A stretch of 36,306 nt of DNA, from NCBI GenBank assembly GCA_009693115.1, contig SHXW01000023.1, positions 1-36,306 on the forward strand, read 5' to 3'. Below, in pieces: positions 28,992-36,306 of the stretch. A program made the translations under genes and the position numbers. The notes beneath the pieces were generated by a model that had not been told where the DNA came from, searched no databases, and was given only the letters and a program-made list of their open reading frames with translations. This DNA comes from Dehalococcoidia bacterium. GTDB lineage: Bacteria > Chloroflexota > Dehalococcoidia > Lucifugimonadales > Lucifugimonadaceae. The number at the start of each line of letters is the position of its first letter. Within the stretch, counting starts at the first letter, position 1.

Positions 28992-30257
28992 GTGATAGTC
29001 GGGGTGATGGCGGCGGCAAACGCCGTCACCATGGCCCTGGGTTCTCTCAACTTCGGCCTGTTCATCAAGCCGATGGGCGACGATCTCGGCATAGGCCGTT
29101 CATGGTTCGGGTGGGCGGGGACTGCCCAGCAGGTCGCCACGTCCGCCACCAGCCCGTTGATAGGCAGGCTTGTTGACCGCTTCGGCGCGCGGCTCCTGCT
29201 CCCTCTTGCCGCGCTCGTCACATGCGGCGCCCTGACTGGCCTGGCGTTCATTCACAGCGCGTGGCAGATGGTAGCCCTGTTCGCAGTCACCGGCCTGCTC
29301 GGGCTAAGCGGTCCGGGCAACCTTGTGATCGCGGTTCCGGTGCTCAAGTGGTTCGTGCGAAATCGCGGCAAGGCCATCGCCTTCATGTCACTGGGCATCT
29401 CGGTGGGAGCGGTCATATTCCTGCCGCTGACGCAGGTCTTCATTCACCAGCTCGGCTGGCGCCATGCATGGATCGCCCTGTCCATAATCGGCGCAGTCGT
29501 CATCGTGCCCCTTGCGTTGATCTTCCTGAGGAGGCAGCCAGAGGATATGGGCATGCTGCCGGACGGAGCGCCCACCCCTGCTTCACACTCCCCACACGGC
29601 TCCGCCACGCTTTTGGCCGCAAACGACGAAGTCTCGTGGACAGCGCACGATGCCGTCCGCACCGGAGCATTCTGGCGACTGGTCTCTGCGTTCAGCATAA
29701 TCTCGGTCGCAACAGGGCTTGTCGGGCTGCACCGCATACCCGCCTTCACTGACCGCGGGCTTGACGCCAGTCTGATCTCGATCGCCACCGCCCTCGATGC
29801 GGTGTGTGCAGGAGTGACTGTGTTCACGATGGGCCTGCTGTCGAGGCGGTTCCCGGGCCGTTATCTGGGCGCCGTCGGTTTCCTGTTTCTGGCCGCAGCG
29901 ACGGTCCTCACCATCCATGCCACGACCACCGCGGTGATGTTCCTTTCTATGGCCGTATTCGGGATGGGCATAGGGGGGATGATCTTCCTCCACAGCTACA
30001 TCTGGGCGGACTACTTCGGCAGGGCGAACCTCGGGGGTATCCGGGGTATCGTCACTCCAGTAACGCTTGTGATCGGCGGCGCTGGCCCGCCGCTCGCCGG
30101 GTACGTCTTTGACGCCAGAGGCTCGTACATCGGCATCTGGTGGGCCGGGGCCTGCCTGATGCTGGCGGCCGTCGTGATAGTGGCATTCACAGTCGCGCCG
30201 CGAAGGCCGTCCGTCCACCTGTCTCTGGGCGCGGCTGCGACCAGTGGCGAGGCATGA
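28992..30257 (+). CDS. MFS transporter, first of a tandem pair
   Basis: The product of at least 421 residues is a 12-helix major facilitator resembling the monocarboxylate/oxalate-formate-like group. Landmarks are NFGLFIKPMGDDLGIGRSWFGW, the loop motif GRLVDRFGAR, KWFVRNRGKAIAFMSLGIS and GWRHAWIAL. The family-typical YYGW before helix 1 lies upstream of the first GTG (28992). In frame upstream there is no ATG, GTG or TTG before the TGA at 28929-28931, so the start is unresolved. It is either GTG 28992 without a ribosome site or a non-standard codon. AGGA at 28923-28926 is the only ribosome-like site. It is about 60 % like the next gene and probably duplicated. Confidence 0.9.
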   Translation: MIVGVMAAANAVTMALGSLNFGLFIKPMGDDLGIGRSWFGWAGTAQQVATSATSPLIGRLVDRFGARLLLPLAALVTCGALTGLAFIHSAWQMVALFAVTGLLGLSGPGNLVIAVPVLKWFVRNRGKAIAFMSLGISVGAVIFLPLTQVFIHQLGWRHAWIALSIIGAVVIVPLALIFLRRQPEDMGMLPDGAPTPASHSPHGSATLLAANDEVSWTAHDAVRTGAFWRLVSAFSIISVATGLVGLHRIPAFTDRGLDASLISIATALDAVCAGVTVFTMGLLSRRFPGRYLGAVGFLFLAAATVLTIHATTTAVMFLSMAVFGMGIGGMIFLHSYIWADYFGRANLGGIRGIVTPVTLVIGGAGPPLAGYVFDARGSYIGIWWAGACLMLAAVVIVAFTVAPRRPSVHLSLGAAATSGEA

Positions 30258-30395
30258 CCTCCACACAGGACAATTGAACTTCCCAGCGATGCCCTTTGAG
30301 AAGGATGTGAAATTACGGCCAACGCAACGGGCGACCGGGTTCAGGCCGGTGGCCAAACACCCAACAAGCCGCGGTTCTTCTACGGCTGGTACATA

Positions 30396-31628
30396 GTGGC
30401 TGCGATGGCATCCGCAAGCGCGGCGAACATGGCCATGGTCACGCTCAACTTCGGCCTTTTCATCAAGCCGATGGGCGATGAGTTGGGCATCGGCCGCGCC
30501 ACGTTCGGCTGGGCCTCCTCGGCCCGGCAGTTCGCCACCTCCGCCACCAGCCCCATCGTGGGCCGGCTGCTGGACCGTTTCGGCGCGCGCCTCATGCTGC
30601 CCATTGCTGCCGTCCTCACGGGGGCGGCGATGATCTGGCTCAGCTTCTCCCACCATGGTTGGCAGCTCATTCTGATCTTCGCCCTTATGGGCCTTGTGGG
30701 GATGAGCGGACCCGGCGCGCTCATGTCATCCGTCCCCGTTTTGAAGTGGTTCGTCCGCAACAGGGGCAAGGCTGTGGCATTCATGTCTCTGGGCATCCCG
30801 ATAGGCGCTCTCATCTTCGTGCCGCTCACACAGGTCTTCATAGACTGGTGGACATGGCGCGGCGCTCTCGTGGCTCTGGCGCTCATCGGCGTCGCTGTAG
30901 TGGCGCCGCTGAGCCTGATCGTCGTCCGTAGACAACCAGAGGACATGGGGCTGCGGCCGGACGGGGCAGCGGCTCCTGCCGCGGGGCATACTGGCACGGC
31001 AAAATGCGCGACTGACGAGGAGTCATGGACAGCGAAGGAGGCCATGCGATCCGGAGCGTTCTGGCGGCTGGTGGCGGTGTTCAGCATCGTCTCGCTCGGC
31101 GTGGGCACACTCGGCGTCCACCGCATACCGTCATTCATGGACCGCGGTCTGGACGCGCGGCTCGTGTCCTTCGCCACCGCATTTGACGCAGTATGCGCGG
31201 GCATCAGCGTGTTCACCATGGGGTTCCTCGTCAGGAAGTACTCCCCCGCCCTACTGGGCGCGGTCGGGTTCCTGCTCCTGGGGATAGCGAGCGTCCTCAC
31301 CATCTACGCCACCAGTGTGCCGGTCATGTTCATCTCCATGGCAGTGTTCGGTCTGGGCATTGGCGGGCAGATGTTCCTCCAAAACTTCTTGTGGGCGGAC
31401 TATTTTGGCCGCCGGCACCTCGGCAGCATCCGGGGCATCGTCACACCGGTCACGCTGATAATCGGCGGCATAGGCGCACCTGTTGCCGGGTACGTCAGAG
31501 ACGCGACCGGTTCGTATGACTCCATCTGGTGGGGAGGCGTGGTGCTCATGCTCATCGGTGCTCTGGCGCTCGTCACCACCAGAACGCCGCGTAAGCCGGA
31601 GGGCTTGGAGGCGGCTTTGCGCGAATAA
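30396..31628 (+). CDS. MFS transporter, second of a tandem pair
   Basis: The product is a 12-helix major facilitator closely similar to its neighbour throughout: NFGLFIKPMGDELGIGRATFGW, GRLLDRFGAR, KWFVRNRGKAVAFMSLGIP, and IRGIVTPVTLIIGG near the end. The first standard start is the GTG at 30396, which cuts off the conserved FFYGWYI and has no ribosome site. An ATT at 30312 lies 6 nt after AAGGA (30301-30305) and would give a 28-residue N-terminal extension ending in FFYGWYI. I think ATT is the likelier start, though rare, and keep the standard one in the coordinates. It lies 138 bp after the first MFS stop; both may carry substrates of the DapA-like enzyme. Confidence 0.9.
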   Translation: MAAMASASAANMAMVTLNFGLFIKPMGDELGIGRATFGWASSARQFATSATSPIVGRLLDRFGARLMLPIAAVLTGAAMIWLSFSHHGWQLILIFALMGLVGMSGPGALMSSVPVLKWFVRNRGKAVAFMSLGIPIGALIFVPLTQVFIDWWTWRGALVALALIGVAVVAPLSLIVVRRQPEDMGLRPDGAAAPAAGHTGTAKCATDEESWTAKEAMRSGAFWRLVAVFSIVSLGVGTLGVHRIPSFMDRGLDARLVSFATAFDAVCAGISVFTMGFLVRKYSPALLGAVGFLLLGIASVLTIYATSVPVMFISMAVFGLGIGGQMFLQNFLWADYFGRRHLGSIRGIVTPVTLIIGGIGAPVAGYVRDATGSYDSIWWGGVVLMLIGALALVTTRTPRKPEGLEAALRE

Positions 31629-31651
31629 GTCTAAGAAAAGCTGGTTTAGCT

Positions 31652-31679
31652 TTGACACCCCCTGTTCGTGCGCGATAAA
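31652..31679 (+). promoter_or_regulatory. Sigma70-type promoter of the sulfite/nitrite reductase leader
   Basis: A perfect TTGACA (31652-31657) is followed after 16 nt by GATAAA (31674-31679), or after 18 nt by TAAACT; each matches 4 of 6 consensus bases. Transcription should start near 31686-31689, which coincides with the ATG (31688) of the leader peptide, so that the leader mRNA would have almost no 5' untranslated bases. It begins 24 bp after the MFS stop codon. Confidence 0.72.
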
Positions 31680-31687
31680 CTCCGGCT

Positions 31688-31723
31688 ATGAAACTGTGCT
31701 TCCGCCCCAATTGCGCGTGTTGA
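31688..31723 (+). CDS. Cysteine-containing leader peptide (11 codons)
   Basis: ATG at 31688 to TGA at 31721-31723 encodes MKLCFRPNCAC: three cysteines in eleven residues, two of them in the last three positions. The ATG sits at the expected transcription start of the promoter just upstream, so translation would be leaderless. The frame is followed by competing RNA stems and an intrinsic terminator before a sirohaem reductase gene. This is the layout of amino-acid attenuator peptides, and cysteine is the product of the sulfite-reduction pathway. Cysteine-rich leaderless peptides before sulfur genes are known in mycobacteria. Its small size means chance cannot be ruled out from this one copy. 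Confidence 0.72.
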   Translation: MKLCFRPNCAC

Positions 31724-31805
31724 ATAGCGACACGTCGTGGGCGGTCTGCCACAATAACTTCCACTGCGACGCCGCCCCACTCTGAACAACGTGGGGTTTT
31801 TGTTT
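31702..31805 (+). promoter_or_regulatory. Putative cysteine attenuator: segments 1-4 with antiterminator and terminator
   Basis: Segment 1 is CCGCCC at 31702-31707, inside the leader peptide's Arg-Pro codons. Segment 2 is GTGGGCGG (31737-31744). Segment 3 is CCGCCCCAC (31772-31780). Segment 4 is GTGGGG (31791-31796). Segments 1 and 2 pair perfectly over 6 bp. Segments 2 and 3 pair over 8 bp with one bulged C. Segments 3 and 4 form the terminator. Pairings 2:3 and 3:4 exclude each other, as do 1:2 and 2:3. A ribosome waiting at the Cys codons (31712-31714 or 31718-31720) would cover segment 1, free segment 2 to capture segment 3, and so prevent termination. Confidence 0.68.
31775..31805 (+). 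terminator. Intrinsic terminator in the reductase leader
   Basis: The stem CCCCAC (31775-31780) with GTGGGG (31791-31796) has a 10-nt loop, extendable by a G-U pair. It is followed by TTTTTGTTT (31797-31805). It lies between the leader peptide and the reductase start (31872), so it must be conditional. Confidence 0.82.
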
Positions 31806-31871
31806 GAGGATCCGTCCCCAGATGCCGGTGTGCCGGCCACCCATCGCCTTTCCGGACTCAGGAGCGATTAC

Positions 31872-33665
31872 TTGACCACGACACACCCAACCCAGACACC
31901 AAAGTGGACGCCCGACCCGAAGGGCCAGCGCATCCTGACCATCCTCCCCGGCGAGATAGAGAATTTCGAGAACGAGGTCAGCAAGTTCCGCGCCGGCCAG
32001 GTGGACGCCACCCAGTTCACCCGCTTCCGCCTCCGCCAGGGCATCTACGGGCAGCGTCAGGCTGACCGCCAGATGGTCCGGGTGAAGATCCCCTTCGGCG
32101 GCCTCACGTATGAGCAGATGGTCGTCCTCGGCAAGGTCTGCGACCGCTACACCCCCCTGAAGAAGGGTCACCTGACAACGCGCGAGAACGTCCAATACCA
32201 CCACGTTCCGCTTCCTGACGTTCCCGGTCTGCTCCGCATGATCGGCGACGTGGGCCTGACGACGCGTGAGGCGTGCGGCAACACAGTCCGCAACGTGGTC
32301 GCCAACCCCACCTCCGGCGTGCTCAAGGGCGAGGCGTTTGACGTGACGCCCTACGTGGCGGCCTACGCGCGCTGGTTCCTGCGCCACGCCACGACGCAGG
32401 ACATGCCCCGCAAGGTCAAGACTGCCTTCTCCAGCGCCGCCACAGACCCCTCGATCACGAAGATCCATGACATGGGGTTCATCGCAAAGGTGAAAGACGG
32501 CAAACGCGGCTTCGAGATCCTCGTCGGCGGAGGCACCTCGATCATGCCCCGACTCGCCGACACGCTCTTTGATTTCGTCCCCGTCGAGGACTTCATCACT
32601 TCGGCGGAAGCCGCCCTCCGCATCTTCAACCGCCAGGATGAAGAGCGGAAGAACCGCATGAAAGCCCGCATCAAGTACACACTCACGCGCCTCGGCGTTG
32701 AAGAGTTCCGACGCCAGGTCCTGGAAGAGCTTAAGGGCGACTGGGCGAAGAACAAGCCCGACCTTAACAAGCTGCTCTGGCACGAGGACGAGGAGAAGCT
32801 CGCCGCGCCAAAACCCGCCCACCCCACGCCATGGCCAAAGAGCGACGCCGCGTTCGACCTGTGGGTGAAGGAAAACACCGAAGAACAGAAGCAGCCCGGG
32901 TTCCGCATCGTGTACGCGCTCGTGGATCGCGGTGACATCTTCGCCGAGCAGTGGACGCCGCTCGCAGAATTGGCGAAGGAGTTCGCAGGCAGCCGCGTCC
33001 GCATTGACCAGCAGCAGAACATGGTCTTCCGATGGGTCCGCACAGAATCACTCTATGACTTCTACCTGCAGCTGAAGAAGGTAGGCTTCGCCGGCACGGG
33101 ACGCGAGACGATCAAGGACATCGTGACCTGCCCTGGTACAGACTCCTGCAAGCTCGGAATCACTTCTTCGATGGGCCTGAACAAGGCCCTGACCGAAATG
33201 CTGGACACGATAGACGTGTCCGACCCGCTCATCAGAGAACTGCACATCAAGGCGTCAGGCTGCCCGAACGGGTGCGGCCAGCACCACATAGCCAACATCG
33301 GCTTCCACGGCGCAGCAATGAAGGGCCAGGGCGGTCAGGCGCCGGCTTACGAACTGTTCCTCGGCGGGAACTACGAATCGAAGACCGGAGCGACGCGCTT
33401 CGGCACGCGCATCAAGGCCCGCGTACCGGCCAGGATGGCACCGCAGGCCGTGAAGTCTCTTCTCGACTATTACAAGTCCAACCGGCAGCAGGATGAGCGT
33501 TTCAACGCTTTCGTGGACCGCGTCGGCACGAAGCCCTTCGAGGCGCTGTTCGGCGAGTTTGGGGACATCGGCCCGCTCAACCGCGAGAACATCGAGAAGT
33601 ACATGGACTGGGGCAAGACCGTCCTGTACAAGATCGAACGCGGCGAGGGCGAGTGCGCGGTATAG
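31872..33665 (+). CDS. Sirohaem/[4Fe-4S] nitrite/sulfite reductase, probably assimilatory sulfite reductase
   Basis: The product of about 597 residues has two ferredoxin-like half-domains and two sirohaem-reductase halves. Cluster/sirohaem cysteines are Cys420, Cys426 (TCPGTDSC) and Cys464, Cys468 (SGCPNGC). Sirohaem-binding segments RFRLRQGIYGQRQ and HLTTRENVQYHH are present, as is EACGNTVRNV with Cys135. Tyr59 and Cys135 correspond, by motif, to the Tyr-Cys pair reported near sirohaem in the ferredoxin-dependent sulfite reductase NirA of Mycobacterium. TTG at 31872 has AGGAG (31860-31864) 7 nt upstream; the longer frame from GTG 31791 starts inside the terminator stem and is rejected. The upstream cysteine attenuator favours sulfite over nitrite as substrate. 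The electron donor is presumably ferredoxin, because no flavin subunit is near. Confidence 0.92.
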   Translation: MTTTHPTQTPKWTPDPKGQRILTILPGEIENFENEVSKFRAGQVDATQFTRFRLRQGIYGQRQADRQMVRVKIPFGGLTYEQMVVLGKVCDRYTPLKKGHLTTRENVQYHHVPLPDVPGLLRMIGDVGLTTREACGNTVRNVVANPTSGVLKGEAFDVTPYVAAYARWFLRHATTQDMPRKVKTAFSSAATDPSITKIHDMGFIAKVKDGKRGFEILVGGGTSIMPRLADTLFDFVPVEDFITSAEAALRIFNRQDEERKNRMKARIKYTLTRLGVEEFRRQVLEELKGDWAKNKPDLNKLLWHEDEEKLAAPKPAHPTPWPKSDAAFDLWVKENTEEQKQPGFRIVYALVDRGDIFAEQWTPLAELAKEFAGSRVRIDQQQNMVFRWVRTESLYDFYLQLKKVGFAGTGRETIKDIVTCPGTDSCKLGITSSMGLNKALTEMLDTIDVSDPLIRELHIKASGCPNGCGQHHIANIGFHGAAMKGQGGQAPAYELFLGGNYESKTGATRFGTRIKARVPARMAPQAVKSLLDYYKSNRQQDERFNAFVDRVGTKPFEALFGEFGDIGPLNRENIEKYMDWGKTVLYKIERGEGECAV

Positions 33666-33676
33666 GGCACTTCTCT

Positions 33677-33698
33677 CCCTCTCCCTGCAGAGAGAGGG
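33677..33698. repeat. CCCTCTC inverted repeat (REP-like)
   Basis: CCCTCTC (33677-33683) and GAGAGGG (33692-33698) form a 7-bp stem just after the reductase stop. Related CCCTCTCCC/GGGAGAGGG arms recur near 35234-35318, suggesting a small dispersed palindromic element. Confidence 0.5.
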
Positions 33699-33732
33699 TT
33701 GGGGTGTGGAACGCGAATTAACTAGATTGAAT

Positions 33733-33772
33733 TAACAAGAGAGGGCACGATTTATCGTGCCCTCTCTTGTTA
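33733..33772. terminator. Bidirectional terminator between convergent genes
   Basis: A perfect 19-bp inverted repeat (33733-33751 and 33754-33772, arms TAACAAGAGAGGGCACGAT and its complement) encloses only two bases. It lies between the convergent sulfite/nitrite reductase and Ldh_2 genes. The A/T-rich outer ends supply short U-tracts in both directions, so it could end both transcripts. Confidence 0.75.
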
Positions 33773-33793
33773 TCTGCCGTCGCGTCGCGACCC

Positions 33794-34894
33794 CTACTTC
33801 TTCGTCAGGTTCCAGGGGATGCTGAACTCGGCACAGATGCCCTTGAACCAGTCCACTACCTCCGGGTGCAAGGGGATGCCGTTCTTGCGCCGTTCAATCT
33901 CCGTCTCATATTCGGAAATCCCTGCGTAAATCACGCGGTCGTGACCCGGCGCGGGCTTCGTCTTTGAAAAGCCTTCGAGCATGCCGTCCATATTGGCTTT
34001 GAACTCGTCAACCTCTCCGAAGGCGGCGATGTCGTATGCAGCGACAAAGTGCCCGCGGCGGTTGTTGGCGAGCGTGGCGAACCCGGGCGCGAACGATAGC
34101 TGTCCGCACAGGATGTCCACGATCGCCGCCATGGAGTAGCCCTTGTGCGAGCCCAGCTCGCGCGTTGAGCCGAGCGGGAGCTGCATCCGGACTGACCCGG
34201 CGGCGAACTCTGGTGTCGATCCGCCCTCCATGTCGGGCGTGCCATCGTCCTTAGCCACCCACCCCGGCAGCAGCTTCTTGCCGTTGCGGCGCGCCAGGCC
34301 GATCTTGTTGCCCGCGATCGTCGTCATGGCTGCGTCGAAGATGAACATGGGCTGCTTGCCCGCAGGAACGGCCACGGCGATGGGGTTGGTGCCGAGCTTC
34401 GGCTCTGCTCCGAACGTAGGGACCAGCGAGTTGCCGCCGCCAGTCATGCACCAACCGACCATGTCCTGCTTGGCGGCCATGACGGCGTGATACCCGGCTG
34501 CGCCTAGGTGGCCCGAATTGCGGATGACGACGACGCTCGTGCCGTACTTGCGGGCCTTTTCTATACAGATCTCCATCGCCTTCGGGGTGATCATCAGACC
34601 CAGGCCGCGGTCGCCGTCTATGACGGCCGTGGTGGGCGTCTCCCTGACGATCTTCCAGACCGGCGAAGGGTTGATGGTCTTGTTGTTATAGCCCTGCACG
34701 TATGCCCGGAGCATGTTGGAGACGCCGTGCGTGTCCACGCCCAGGAGGTCGGCGTATATGAGGACGTCTGTGCCAAGCTGGGCCTGGTCCTTCGGGACGC
34801 CGCACTTCATGAAGATGGCCTCGGTCGTCGAGCGCAGCGCAGGCTCCATGACGTGAACGGCTATTTCATCAGGTACGTGGAAGTGTTTGAGCAA
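33794..34894 (-). CDS. Ldh_2 (malate/L-lactate/ureidoglycolate-type) NAD(P)-dependent dehydrogenase
   Basis: The 366-residue product belongs to the Ldh_2 family, which is unrelated to the classical LDH/MDH Rossmann enzymes and oxidises 2-hydroxyacids or related substrates. Visible blocks are the substrate-side GVDTHGVSN (52-60), RNSGHLGAAGYHA with the presumed catalytic His129, LGTNPIAVAVP, and the late GSHKGYSMAAIVDILCG. TTG at 34894 has AAAAGGA about 9 nt upstream. Which hydroxyacid it uses cannot be told. It converges on the reductase gene across a strong palindromic terminator, so the two are separately controlled. Confidence 0.92.
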   Translation of the reverse strand: MLKHFHVPDEIAVHVMEPALRSTTEAIFMKCGVPKDQAQLGTDVLIYADLLGVDTHGVSNMLRAYVQGYNNKTINPSPVWKIVRETPTTAVIDGDRGLGLMITPKAMEICIEKARKYGTSVVVIRNSGHLGAAGYHAVMAAKQDMVGWCMTGGGNSLVPTFGAEPKLGTNPIAVAVPAGKQPMFIFDAAMTTIAGNKIGLARRNGKKLLPGWVAKDDGTPDMEGGSTPEFAAGSVRMQLPLGSTRELGSHKGYSMAAIVDILCGQLSFAPGFATLANNRRGHFVAAYDIAAFGEVDEFKANMDGMLEGFSKTKPAPGHDRVIYAGISEYETEIERRKNGIPLHPEVVDWFKGICAEFSIPWNLTKK

Positions 34895-35481
34895 GTGTGG
34901 TGTTCCTTTTTGAGGTTTGTTCGCGGAAGTCCGTCTGAATATGTTCTCTGGCGGAGCGATGTAGCGCTCCCGGCCAGACCGTGGGCCAGGCTTGGGATGG
35001 TACTACGCGCAAGTAACTCACGACACCGCCCCAGGCAGGGCCACGCCGCGAAGTATCATTCCGAGTCCCTGGCTGCTGCGCACCTTGAGCTTGTCGAAGG
35101 GCGCAGAAGATCGCGTGGGCCGAAGAATCCCGATTCCTCATCCTGAACGAAGCCGAATTATGTTCGGCGATACAGTTCGGTGTCATCCTGAGTCTCGGCG
35201 CACCGCGGACGAAGGAACTCTTCTCGTCGTTTCACCCTCTCCCATTGAGGGGCGGAGACGCGACCCACACCCTGCGACCCGTTGTCACGTGTATCCCGTC
35301 CATTGCAGGGAGAGGGAAGACCGAGGCCCTTCGAACCCGGCCAGCCAGGACGCGTGGGGCGGGCGCGTTGACACCCGTTTGGCCGCGGCGGTAGTCTGAC
35401 AGTTACGCCTCTTATATGGGCGTGACTTGCGGCGATCGGCCCACACCCTGACCTGTAGGCGGCGCCGCCAGAATACCGAGT
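34895..35481. repeat. Intergenic region with degenerate interspersed repeats
   Basis: No gene is supported. It contains a hairpin GGAGCG-ATGTAG-CGCTCC (34953-34970). It also has degraded copies of widespread bacterial intergenic repeats: TCATTCCGAG near 35056, CCTTGAGCTTGTCGAAGGG at 35082-35100, TCATCCTGAACGAAG near 35138, and TCATCCTGAG near 35183 ending in GGACGAAGGAACTCTTCT. CCCTCTCCC near 35235 and GGGAGAGGG near 35309 form long-spaced inverted arms. The repeats end before the promoter-like sequence of tRNA-Ala. Confidence 0.6.
35368..35397 (+). promoter_or_regulatory. Candidate promoter of tRNA-Ala
   Basis: A perfect TTGACA (35368-35373) with an 18-nt spacer precedes TAGTCT (35392-35397), a poor -10. 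Transcription would start about 75 nt before the mature tRNA end. The -35 is convincing, the -10 is not. Confidence 0.4.
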
Positions 35482-35557
35482 GGGGATGTAGCTCAATTGG
35501 GAGAGCGCAGCGTTCGCATCGCTGAGGTTGGGGGTTCGATCCCCCCCATCTCCACCA
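35482..35557 (+). tRNA. tRNA-Ala (anticodon CGC)
   Basis: The cloverleaf is complete: acceptor GGGGATG pairs with CATCTCC, the D arm is GCTC...GAGC, and the anticodon stem is CAGCG/CGCTG with loop TTCGCAT (anticodon CGC, reading GCG). The T arm is GGGGG-TTCGATC-CCCCC, with discriminator A and an encoded CCA. The third acceptor pair is G3-U70, the universal alanine identity element. The gene is 76 nt including CCA. Confidence 0.96.
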
Positions 35558-35791
35558 ACTTTTCCTTTTCTGAATTTCGCCCGGCCTGATGTGGCGATAA
35601 GAGACTGCCATTCGTTCTCCCGAGGTCTGGTTAGGCCGAGGGTCTGGGGATCAATGCGGCCACCGCCCCGGATTCCTCACGACCCGCCTGCGGCGAGTAC
35701 CCCGGGGTTCGGAATGACGGTGATCATGTCATCCTGAACCAAGTTCAGGTTCTCTCGCGAGGCCAGAGACATATCTGGCCGGACCCTTCGG
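35558..35791. repeat. Spacer between the tRNAs with interspersed repeat fragments
   Basis: It contains GATTCCTCACGACC ... GGTTCGGAATGACGG (about 35669-35720) and TCATCCTGAACC followed by a perfect hairpin CCTGAAC-CAA-GTTCAGG (35734-35750). These are forms of the TCATCCTGA/CGGAATGAC repeat family also seen before tRNA-Ala. A second hairpin GGCCAGA-GACATA-TCTGGCC (35761-35780) sits 11 bp before tRNA-Arg. Confidence 0.6.
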
Positions 35792-35867
35792 GCCCCTGTA
35801 GCTCAGTGGACAGAGCAGCGGTTTCCTAAACCGCGTGTCGGCGGTTCAAGTCCGCCCAGGGGCCCCA
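35792..35867 (+). tRNA. tRNA-Arg (anticodon CCU)
   Basis: Acceptor GCCCCTG pairs with CAGGGGC, and the D arm is GCTC...GAGC. The anticodon stem is GCGGT/ACCGC with loop TTCCTAA (anticodon CCT, reading AGG). The T arm is GGCGG-TTCAAGT-CCGCC, and CCA is encoded. The discriminator base is C, whereas A or G is usual for tRNA-Arg. Length is 76 nt. Confidence 0.95.
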
Positions 35868-36306
35868 AACTCCCGCCAATCTCATGGCTTTGGCATGGTC
35901 CAAGGCCGCGCGATCGAGGTTCTGTACCTGATTCTGTACCTTATGGGTAGAAAGCGACGCGCCTGCTGTGCTCAGGGAGTCCACGGCCCATCACACACTC
36001 CCCACAGCCATTCCAGCGCGGCGACTACCCCACGAACCCTGCTCGCGGCGAGCGCAACCGGCCCAGACCGGCAGGGGCGGCAGGCCCAGGTCCGTCAACG
36101 CGGTCACTATGCCCGCACCGGCAAGCCCCGCTCCGCCCGGCGTACAGCCGCGGCCCCTGCTGCGTCCCTGAGCGTGGCTGGCCGATCCCTAGTTCGAACA
36201 TCCAGTGCTGCCTGATTGGCCGAGCGGGCGGTGCCACCCCCCTGCTGGGTACTCCTTACGGAATATGCGCGGGCAACGGTGACGGTACTGGCTCGACGAC
36301 GCAGCC
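35868..36306. other. Region downstream of tRNA-Arg, no gene recognised
   Basis: This 439 bp stretch runs to the window edge. It contains a two-copy 12-bp tandem repeat TTCTGTACCTGA/TTCTGTACCTTA at about 35920-35943. Overlapping frames on both strands (for example 35835-36215 plus, 36025-36237 minus) are Ala/Pro/Arg-rich with no family resemblance. The 3' end of a tRNA is a common integration site, but no integrase is visible before the edge. Confidence 0.4.

Follow-up and report, generated by a model that had tools for sequence, protein, structure and literature searches.

A probable cysteine-responsive transcription attenuator upstream of a siroheme reductase gene in SAR202-type marine Chloroflexota

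Layout of the sir leader

What is the role of a short, cysteine-rich reading frame that lies between a promoter and a reductase gene and is followed by an intrinsic terminator? This question was raised by the window, a stretch of 36,306 nucleotides that corresponds to contig C19 of the 2.0-Mb genome of a SAR202-type marine Chloroflexota. The original prediction had read the leader as a cysteine attenuator, and an order-wide comparison, a predicted switch and a second leader at cysH back this interpretation. On the basis of folding models and comparison, we consider it very probable that the leader is a cysteine-sensing, ribosome-mediated transcription attenuator of the downstream gene, sir.

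All elements described here are located on the forward strand. An MFS transporter gene ends at 31628, 146 nt upstream of the terminator hairpin. Then come a -35 hexamer, TTGACA (31652-31657), which also precedes the Cys leaders of relatives, and, after a spacer of 18 nt, a -10 hexamer, TAAACT (31676-31681). This promoter agrees with the consensus at 10 of 12 positions and was the sole plus-strand match in a simple promoter scan of positions 30000-36306. The leader peptide gene (31688-31723) opens 6 nt past the -10 hexamer with an ATG (31688-31690), closes with a stop codon at 31721-31723 and encodes MKLCFRPNCAC, in which 3 of the 11 residues are cysteines (codons at 31697, 31712 and 31718). 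From the promoter spacing, this gene is predicted to be leaderless.

Four RNA segments complete the leader. Segment 1 (31695-31722, core CCGCCC at 31702-31707) forms the 5' side of a 1:2 protector hairpin. Segment 2 (GTGGGCGGT, 31737-31745; core GTGGGCGG at 31737-31744) is predicted to pair with segment 1 when no ribosome is present and with segment 3 when a ribosome stands on the Cys codons. Segment 3 (GCCGCCCCAC, 31771-31780; core CCGCCCCAC at 31772-31780) is both the antiterminator partner of segment 2 and the left arm of the intrinsic terminator (31774-31805), in which GCCCCAC (31774-31780) and GTGGGGT (31791-31797) form 7 pairs with an energy of -11.1 kcal/mol, followed by a T-rich tract. 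Segment 4 is GTGGGG (31791-31796), followed by TTTTTGTTT. Thus TTGACA, the ATG, the peptide, segments 1 to 4, the terminator, the AGGAG and the TTG start were all found where the original prediction had placed them. No match at the Rfam gathering score was obtained in the leader, and the search of the window gave two tRNAs only.

The gene downstream, sir (31872-33665), encodes a NirA/SirA-type siroheme reductase of 597 amino acids, as judged by profile matches and by the start used in relatives, with which the TTG start at 31872 is consistent. Its ribosome-binding site, AGGAG, is located at 31860-31864. Both halves of the product match NIR_SIR and NIR_SIR_ferr; its top score was with NirA-type models, yet under the cut-off, and among PDB structures it resembles plant-type nitrite reductases and NirA of Mycobacterium tuberculosis. 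Sequence alone is insufficient to decide between sulfite and nitrite. Gene context in part favors sulfite: in G040, G048 and G049, sir shares a contig with the nearby sulfate-assimilation gene cysH, joined in G040 and G049 by sat, a gene of the same pathway. Between sir and the convergent Ldh_2 gene, we noted a strong inverted repeat, AACAAGAGAGGGCACG-ATTTAT-CGTGCCCTCTCTTGTT (33734-33771), that is probably a terminator common to both genes.

Cysteine leaders of relatives at sir and cysH

We searched the sir upstream regions of Chloroflexota with a selection blind to cysteine, which required a promoter with at least 9 of 12 matches and a start codon 6 to 12 nt past the -10 hexamer opening a frame of 6 to 32 codons. 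A candidate leader was recovered in 33 of 73 upstream regions, compared to 78 of 1460 dinucleotide shuffles. At least two cysteines were present in 32 of these 33 promoter-first peptides. Cysteine made up 16.0% of their residues (83 of 518), whereas the two remaining frames gave 3.9% and 1.7%. A larger, order-wide collection comprised 167 unique regions upstream of sir, several dozen of them from outside the order, and 92 of the 167 carried a Cys leader. Examples, each closed by a stop codon, are MNVYTIHGCCCTGR, MLNRDSVITCACSSVP, MKKTISLGCTC, MSDGYRINCCCT and MLVNNICICCCSCTCPPS. Such a leader was also found in the complete genome of Candidatus Lucifugimonas marina strain JH1073 (locus L046, the same region as L012).

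Of 70 strong cases, 53 have a gap of 8 or 9 nt between the -10 hexamer and the start codon; in the window copy, this gap is 6 nt. As a promoter-based estimate, such spacing would put the 5' end of the RNA at the start codon or within about 3 bases of it; the gap of 8 to 9 nt in most relatives fits a 5' untranslated region of 1 to 3 nt too, not strictly none. The last cysteine typically lies 2 to 4 codons ahead of the stop. What clades have in common is the Cys codons and the spacing from these to the stop and to segment 2; the other residues of the peptide are not conserved from one clade to the next. Peptide ends such as CCCTGR are repeated within clades. The comparison of regions upstream of sir orthologues, as proposed in the original prediction, revealed throughout the order short, predicted leaderless frames with Cys codons at their ends.

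A second Cys leader is present in the same genome (G000:C7, about position 38044, minus strand, locus L244), upstream of cysH, with sat downstream. It consists of TATACT without a good -35 hexamer, an ATG 10 nt later, the peptide MRTSPSKCHCCTVPTTGEVQPRHTTDA followed by a stop codon, and a terminator of -20.0 kcal/mol. Upstream of another cysH (L238, G042:C47), we observed the longest Cys run, CVCCCCC, within a 37-codon peptide whose start codon is uncertain.

Two genera depart from this pattern. In genus g10, the closest to the window by sir sequence (66 to 69% identity), the sir upstream region is different and contains no Cys leader, while cysH of the g10 genomes G009 and G019 has one. In genus g2 (L005/L034), segments 2, 3 and 4 are kept about 130 to 200 nt upstream of sir, together with a promoter and the stop codon, and the frame ahead of the stop has neither a Cys codon nor an ATG; this leader looks like a decaying or re-purposed attenuator. 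Relatives with an intact reductase and no Cys codons or stems had been named in the original prediction as evidence against it. Both genera, with an intact reductase but no Cys leader at sir, fit this description, which bears out the objection only in part. Since the wider order and the cysH of g10 carry Cys leaders, both cases look like lineage losses within the family. About 60 nt upstream of sir, the g10 loci (L002, L003, L004, L031 and L111-L113) share a conserved element, TGTATGATTACNACTA, containing an extended -10-like sequence, TGTATGAT; it is possibly another promoter or an operator.

Predicted switch and proposed mechanism

In most relatives, a G-rich segment (GGGGC, GGGGTC or GCAGGG) directly follows the stop codon; next come a linker and a terminator, the left arm of which can pair with the G-rich segment. 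With a criterion of better than -8 kcal/mol plus a T tract, intrinsic terminators were detected in 83 of the 92 leaders, with a median energy of -17.9 kcal/mol and a median position 32 nt past the stop. When the full-length leader was folded at equilibrium, the terminator dominated in nearly all ribosome states, so that any switching has to depend on kinetics, as it does in attenuators elsewhere. Because equilibrium folding at full length cannot separate the ribosome states, we folded instead the nascent RNA up to the terminator loop, scored as antiterminator any state with segment 3 held by upstream RNA, and mimicked the ribosome by barring from pairing a stretch that ran from 15 nt upstream to 12 nt downstream of the A-site codon's first base.

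Over the order-wide leaders, the predicted antiterminator probability was 0.57 with the ribosome on the Cys codons, 0.32 on the stop and 0.46 without a ribosome. When the RNA upstream of segment 3 was shuffled, the values were 0.48, 0.46 and 0.52, respectively. The Cys-minus-stop difference exceeded that of the shuffles with a p of 5e-12 and the Cys-minus-none difference with a p of 6e-9, values that are optimistic because related sequences overstate independence. The Cys/stop pattern persisted across genera and families. A few loci misassigned by the automatic detector (e.g., L005, L015 and L028) add noise, not signal, to these statistics. The same trend was seen before cysH, where the antiterminator probability was higher on Cys than on stop in 11 of 12 leaders, including MRTSPSKCHCCTVPTTGEVQPRHTTDA (0.16 free, 0.57 on Cys and 0.13 on stop).

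The segments also change together, which, as the leaders vary widely in length, was assessed by a swap test. Segment 2 pairs better with its own segment 3 (mean of -10.7 kcal/mol) than with swapped ones (-9.5 kcal/mol; z = -5.1, 5000 permutations), and the aligned leaders show compensating changes, for example, GAGAGG/CCTCTC (L181), GCAGGG/CCCTGC (L044) and GTGGG/CCCAC (L001). This is in agreement with the conserved alternative stems expected from the original prediction, as relatives possess segment 2 and an intrinsic terminator along with an alternative segment 3.

In the window copy, the terminator is less stable (-11.1 versus a median of -17.9 kcal/mol), and segment 2 lies 13 nt past the stop, versus directly past it in most of them. 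Without a ribosome, folding pairs 31695-31699 with 31748-31753, 31702-31707 with 31739-31744, and 31713-31722 with 31728-31738, giving a 1:2 hairpin over 31695-31753 of -26.4 kcal/mol (z = -2.7). The pairings of the original prediction are present, with a 1:2 hairpin longer than it stated and a terminator of 7 pairs. The predicted antiterminator probability was 0.29 without a ribosome and 0.70 to 0.84 on the three Cys codons. Among 400 dinucleotide shuffles of this leader, 3% matched the level on the Cys codons and 1.5% the difference between the Cys codons and the free state. With the ribosome on the stop, the value was 0.85, the 1:2 hairpin being broken and segment 2 uncovered. As a terminating ribosome would leave segment 2 uncovered here, the OFF state requires ribosome release and refolding of 1:2, whereas in most relatives folding permits termination with the ribosome still on the stop. 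In its predicted folds, the window copy is nearer than most relatives to the trp-type scheme drawn in the original prediction.

From the sequence parts, their conservation and the predicted switch, we infer the transcription start, the stalling, the termination and the response to cysteine as follows. Transcription would start at the ATG or within a few bases of it, and a ribosome would load at the RNA's 5' end to translate MKLCFRPNCAC. When Cys-tRNA runs short, this ribosome would wait on a Cys codon and cover segment 1, leaving segment 2 free to pair with segment 3 ahead of the synthesis of segment 4. With 2:3 paired, the terminator could not form and RNA polymerase would continue into sir. 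If cysteine is ample, the ribosome would get to the stop codon. In most relatives, the terminating ribosome would then cover segment 2, while in the window copy it would leave and the 1:2 hairpin would reform. By either route, segment 3 would be free for segment 4 and transcription would end.

Alternative readings, known systems and range

We considered four other explanations for these observations. The one that deserves most attention, though we regard it as unlikely, is that the device works in relatives and is being lost in the window genome, as in g10 and g2. The distant segment 2, the weak terminator and the absence of the leader from sir of the nearest relatives fit such a decay. Against it, nothing is missing from the promoter, the start, the three Cys codons or the 1:2, 2:3 and 3:4 pairings, and changes in segment 2 are matched by changes in segments 3 and 4 (GTGGG/CCCAC). 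It is very unlikely that the leader acts on translation in the mycobacterial style, stalled ribosomes on the Cys codons freeing the downstream ribosome-binding site. Leaderless Cys-rich short open reading frames are reported to attenuate downstream translation in Mycobacterium smegmatis (PMC9031893; PMC13236596). At sir, however, the folding model pairs AGGAG locally with 31847-31853 in all ribosome states, so that no position in the leader frees it, and a terminator with a U tract stands between leader and gene in the large majority of the leaders.

Slightly less credible still is that the nascent peptide senses redox state, sulfide or a metal rather than the Cys-tRNA supply. Cysteines are able to bind metals or become oxidized, and recurring ends such as CCCTGR would suit such a role, but conservation between clades is limited to the Cys codons and their spacing, and the only targets found are cysteine biosynthesis genes. 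That the hairpin merely terminates the MFS gene and that the short frame arose by chance seems the most improbable of all: the MFS gene does end a short distance upstream on the same strand, but a strong promoter separates it from the hairpin, and orthologues of sir and cysH are repeatedly preceded by leaderless Cys-rich frames. Attenuation of sir transcription in response to cysteine remains our preferred reading.

Parts of this arrangement are known from other bacteria. For Actinobacteria, a 2005 study predicted Cys leader peptides that lack terminators (PMC1262725), leaderless upstream open reading frames with Cys were described in mycobacteria (Shell 2015, PMC4633059), and cysteine-responsive attenuation was reported in 2020 (Canestrari), as cited in PMC9031893 and PMC13236596. 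The mycobacterial polycysteine frames are leaderless, as the sir leader is predicted to be; they likewise have Cys codons clustered near the stop and precede cysteine or sulfur genes, and ribosome speed on the Cys codons is the sensor, as proposed for sir. They differ in being described as acting on translation, without conserved terminators (PMC1262725), whereas the sir leader has a terminator and a competing antiterminator. They also belong to another phylum, and control of the downstream ribosome-binding site, a mycobacterial trait, was not found at sir, where the modeled Shine-Dalgarno pairing is independent of ribosome position. The 2020 work reportedly suggests that the ribosome-binding site is sequestered, and proposes the term "ribulon."

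The uORFC-8-2 motif before cysS of Rhodobacterales is a predicted Cys leader with a terminator; in the passage that describes it, it has two Cys codons in a stem, an intrinsic terminator and predicted transcription attenuation on Cys-tRNA shortage, and it is not called leaderless (PMC8632094). Its target is cysS in Alphaproteobacteria, whereas the Chloroflexota device is found at sir and cysH, not at cysS. Trp-type attenuators share the 1:2, 2:3 and 3:4 segments and the control codons in the leader, as well as the need for 1:2 in the OFF state of the window copy, but respond to tryptophan, whereas the sir leader has Cys codons and a predicted leaderless start without a ribosome-binding site of its own. 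In Streptomyces, trpL1, leuL2 and ilvL are leaderless attenuators with a Rho-independent terminator (PMC8079986), as here, but for other amino acids and in another phylum. A literature search, most subscription journals being outside it, found nothing linking SAR202 to attenuators or Chloroflexi to cysteine leader-peptide attenuation, in line with the original prediction, which knew of no such Cys attenuator in Chloroflexota-like genomes. The combination of leaderless start, cysteine, intrinsic terminator, Chloroflexota and sir/cysH thus appears to be new.

With somewhat less assurance than for the sir leader alone, we favor the view that SAR202-type Chloroflexota possess a ribosome-directed cysteine regulon, in which leaderless Cys peptides with their own terminators jointly control sir, for sulfite reduction, and cysH-sat, for PAPS/APS reduction. 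Such a regulon would do at the level of transcription, and in a different phylum, what the mycobacterial system does in translation, and the two probably arose independently. If so, an abundant deep-ocean group would govern assimilatory sulfur reduction by a simple mechanism at the RNA level, leaderless translation would serve as a sensor beyond Actinobacteria, and more than 90 natural cysteine attenuator variants would be at hand to test how termination depends on where the ribosome stands.

Upstream of sat, cysK and cysS, only isolated, dubious matches were found (one for cysS of relatives); cysE itself was not recovered at the threshold used. Frames with Cys, searched without requiring a promoter, were absent upstream of non-SAR202, mostly actinobacterial, sir genes, and of 28 Chloroflexota sir genes newly sampled beyond the order, at most 1 gave a weak candidate. 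The presence of leaders at sir and cysH and their near absence from the other genes examined tie the device to the two reductive steps of sulfate assimilation and, for the most part, to this order. At one sir homologue from outside the order (L350, G460:C52), a possible Cys leader, MSHQPRACVCMCRRPRRPEDGV, follows a weak promoter and may mark a wider distribution of the leader.
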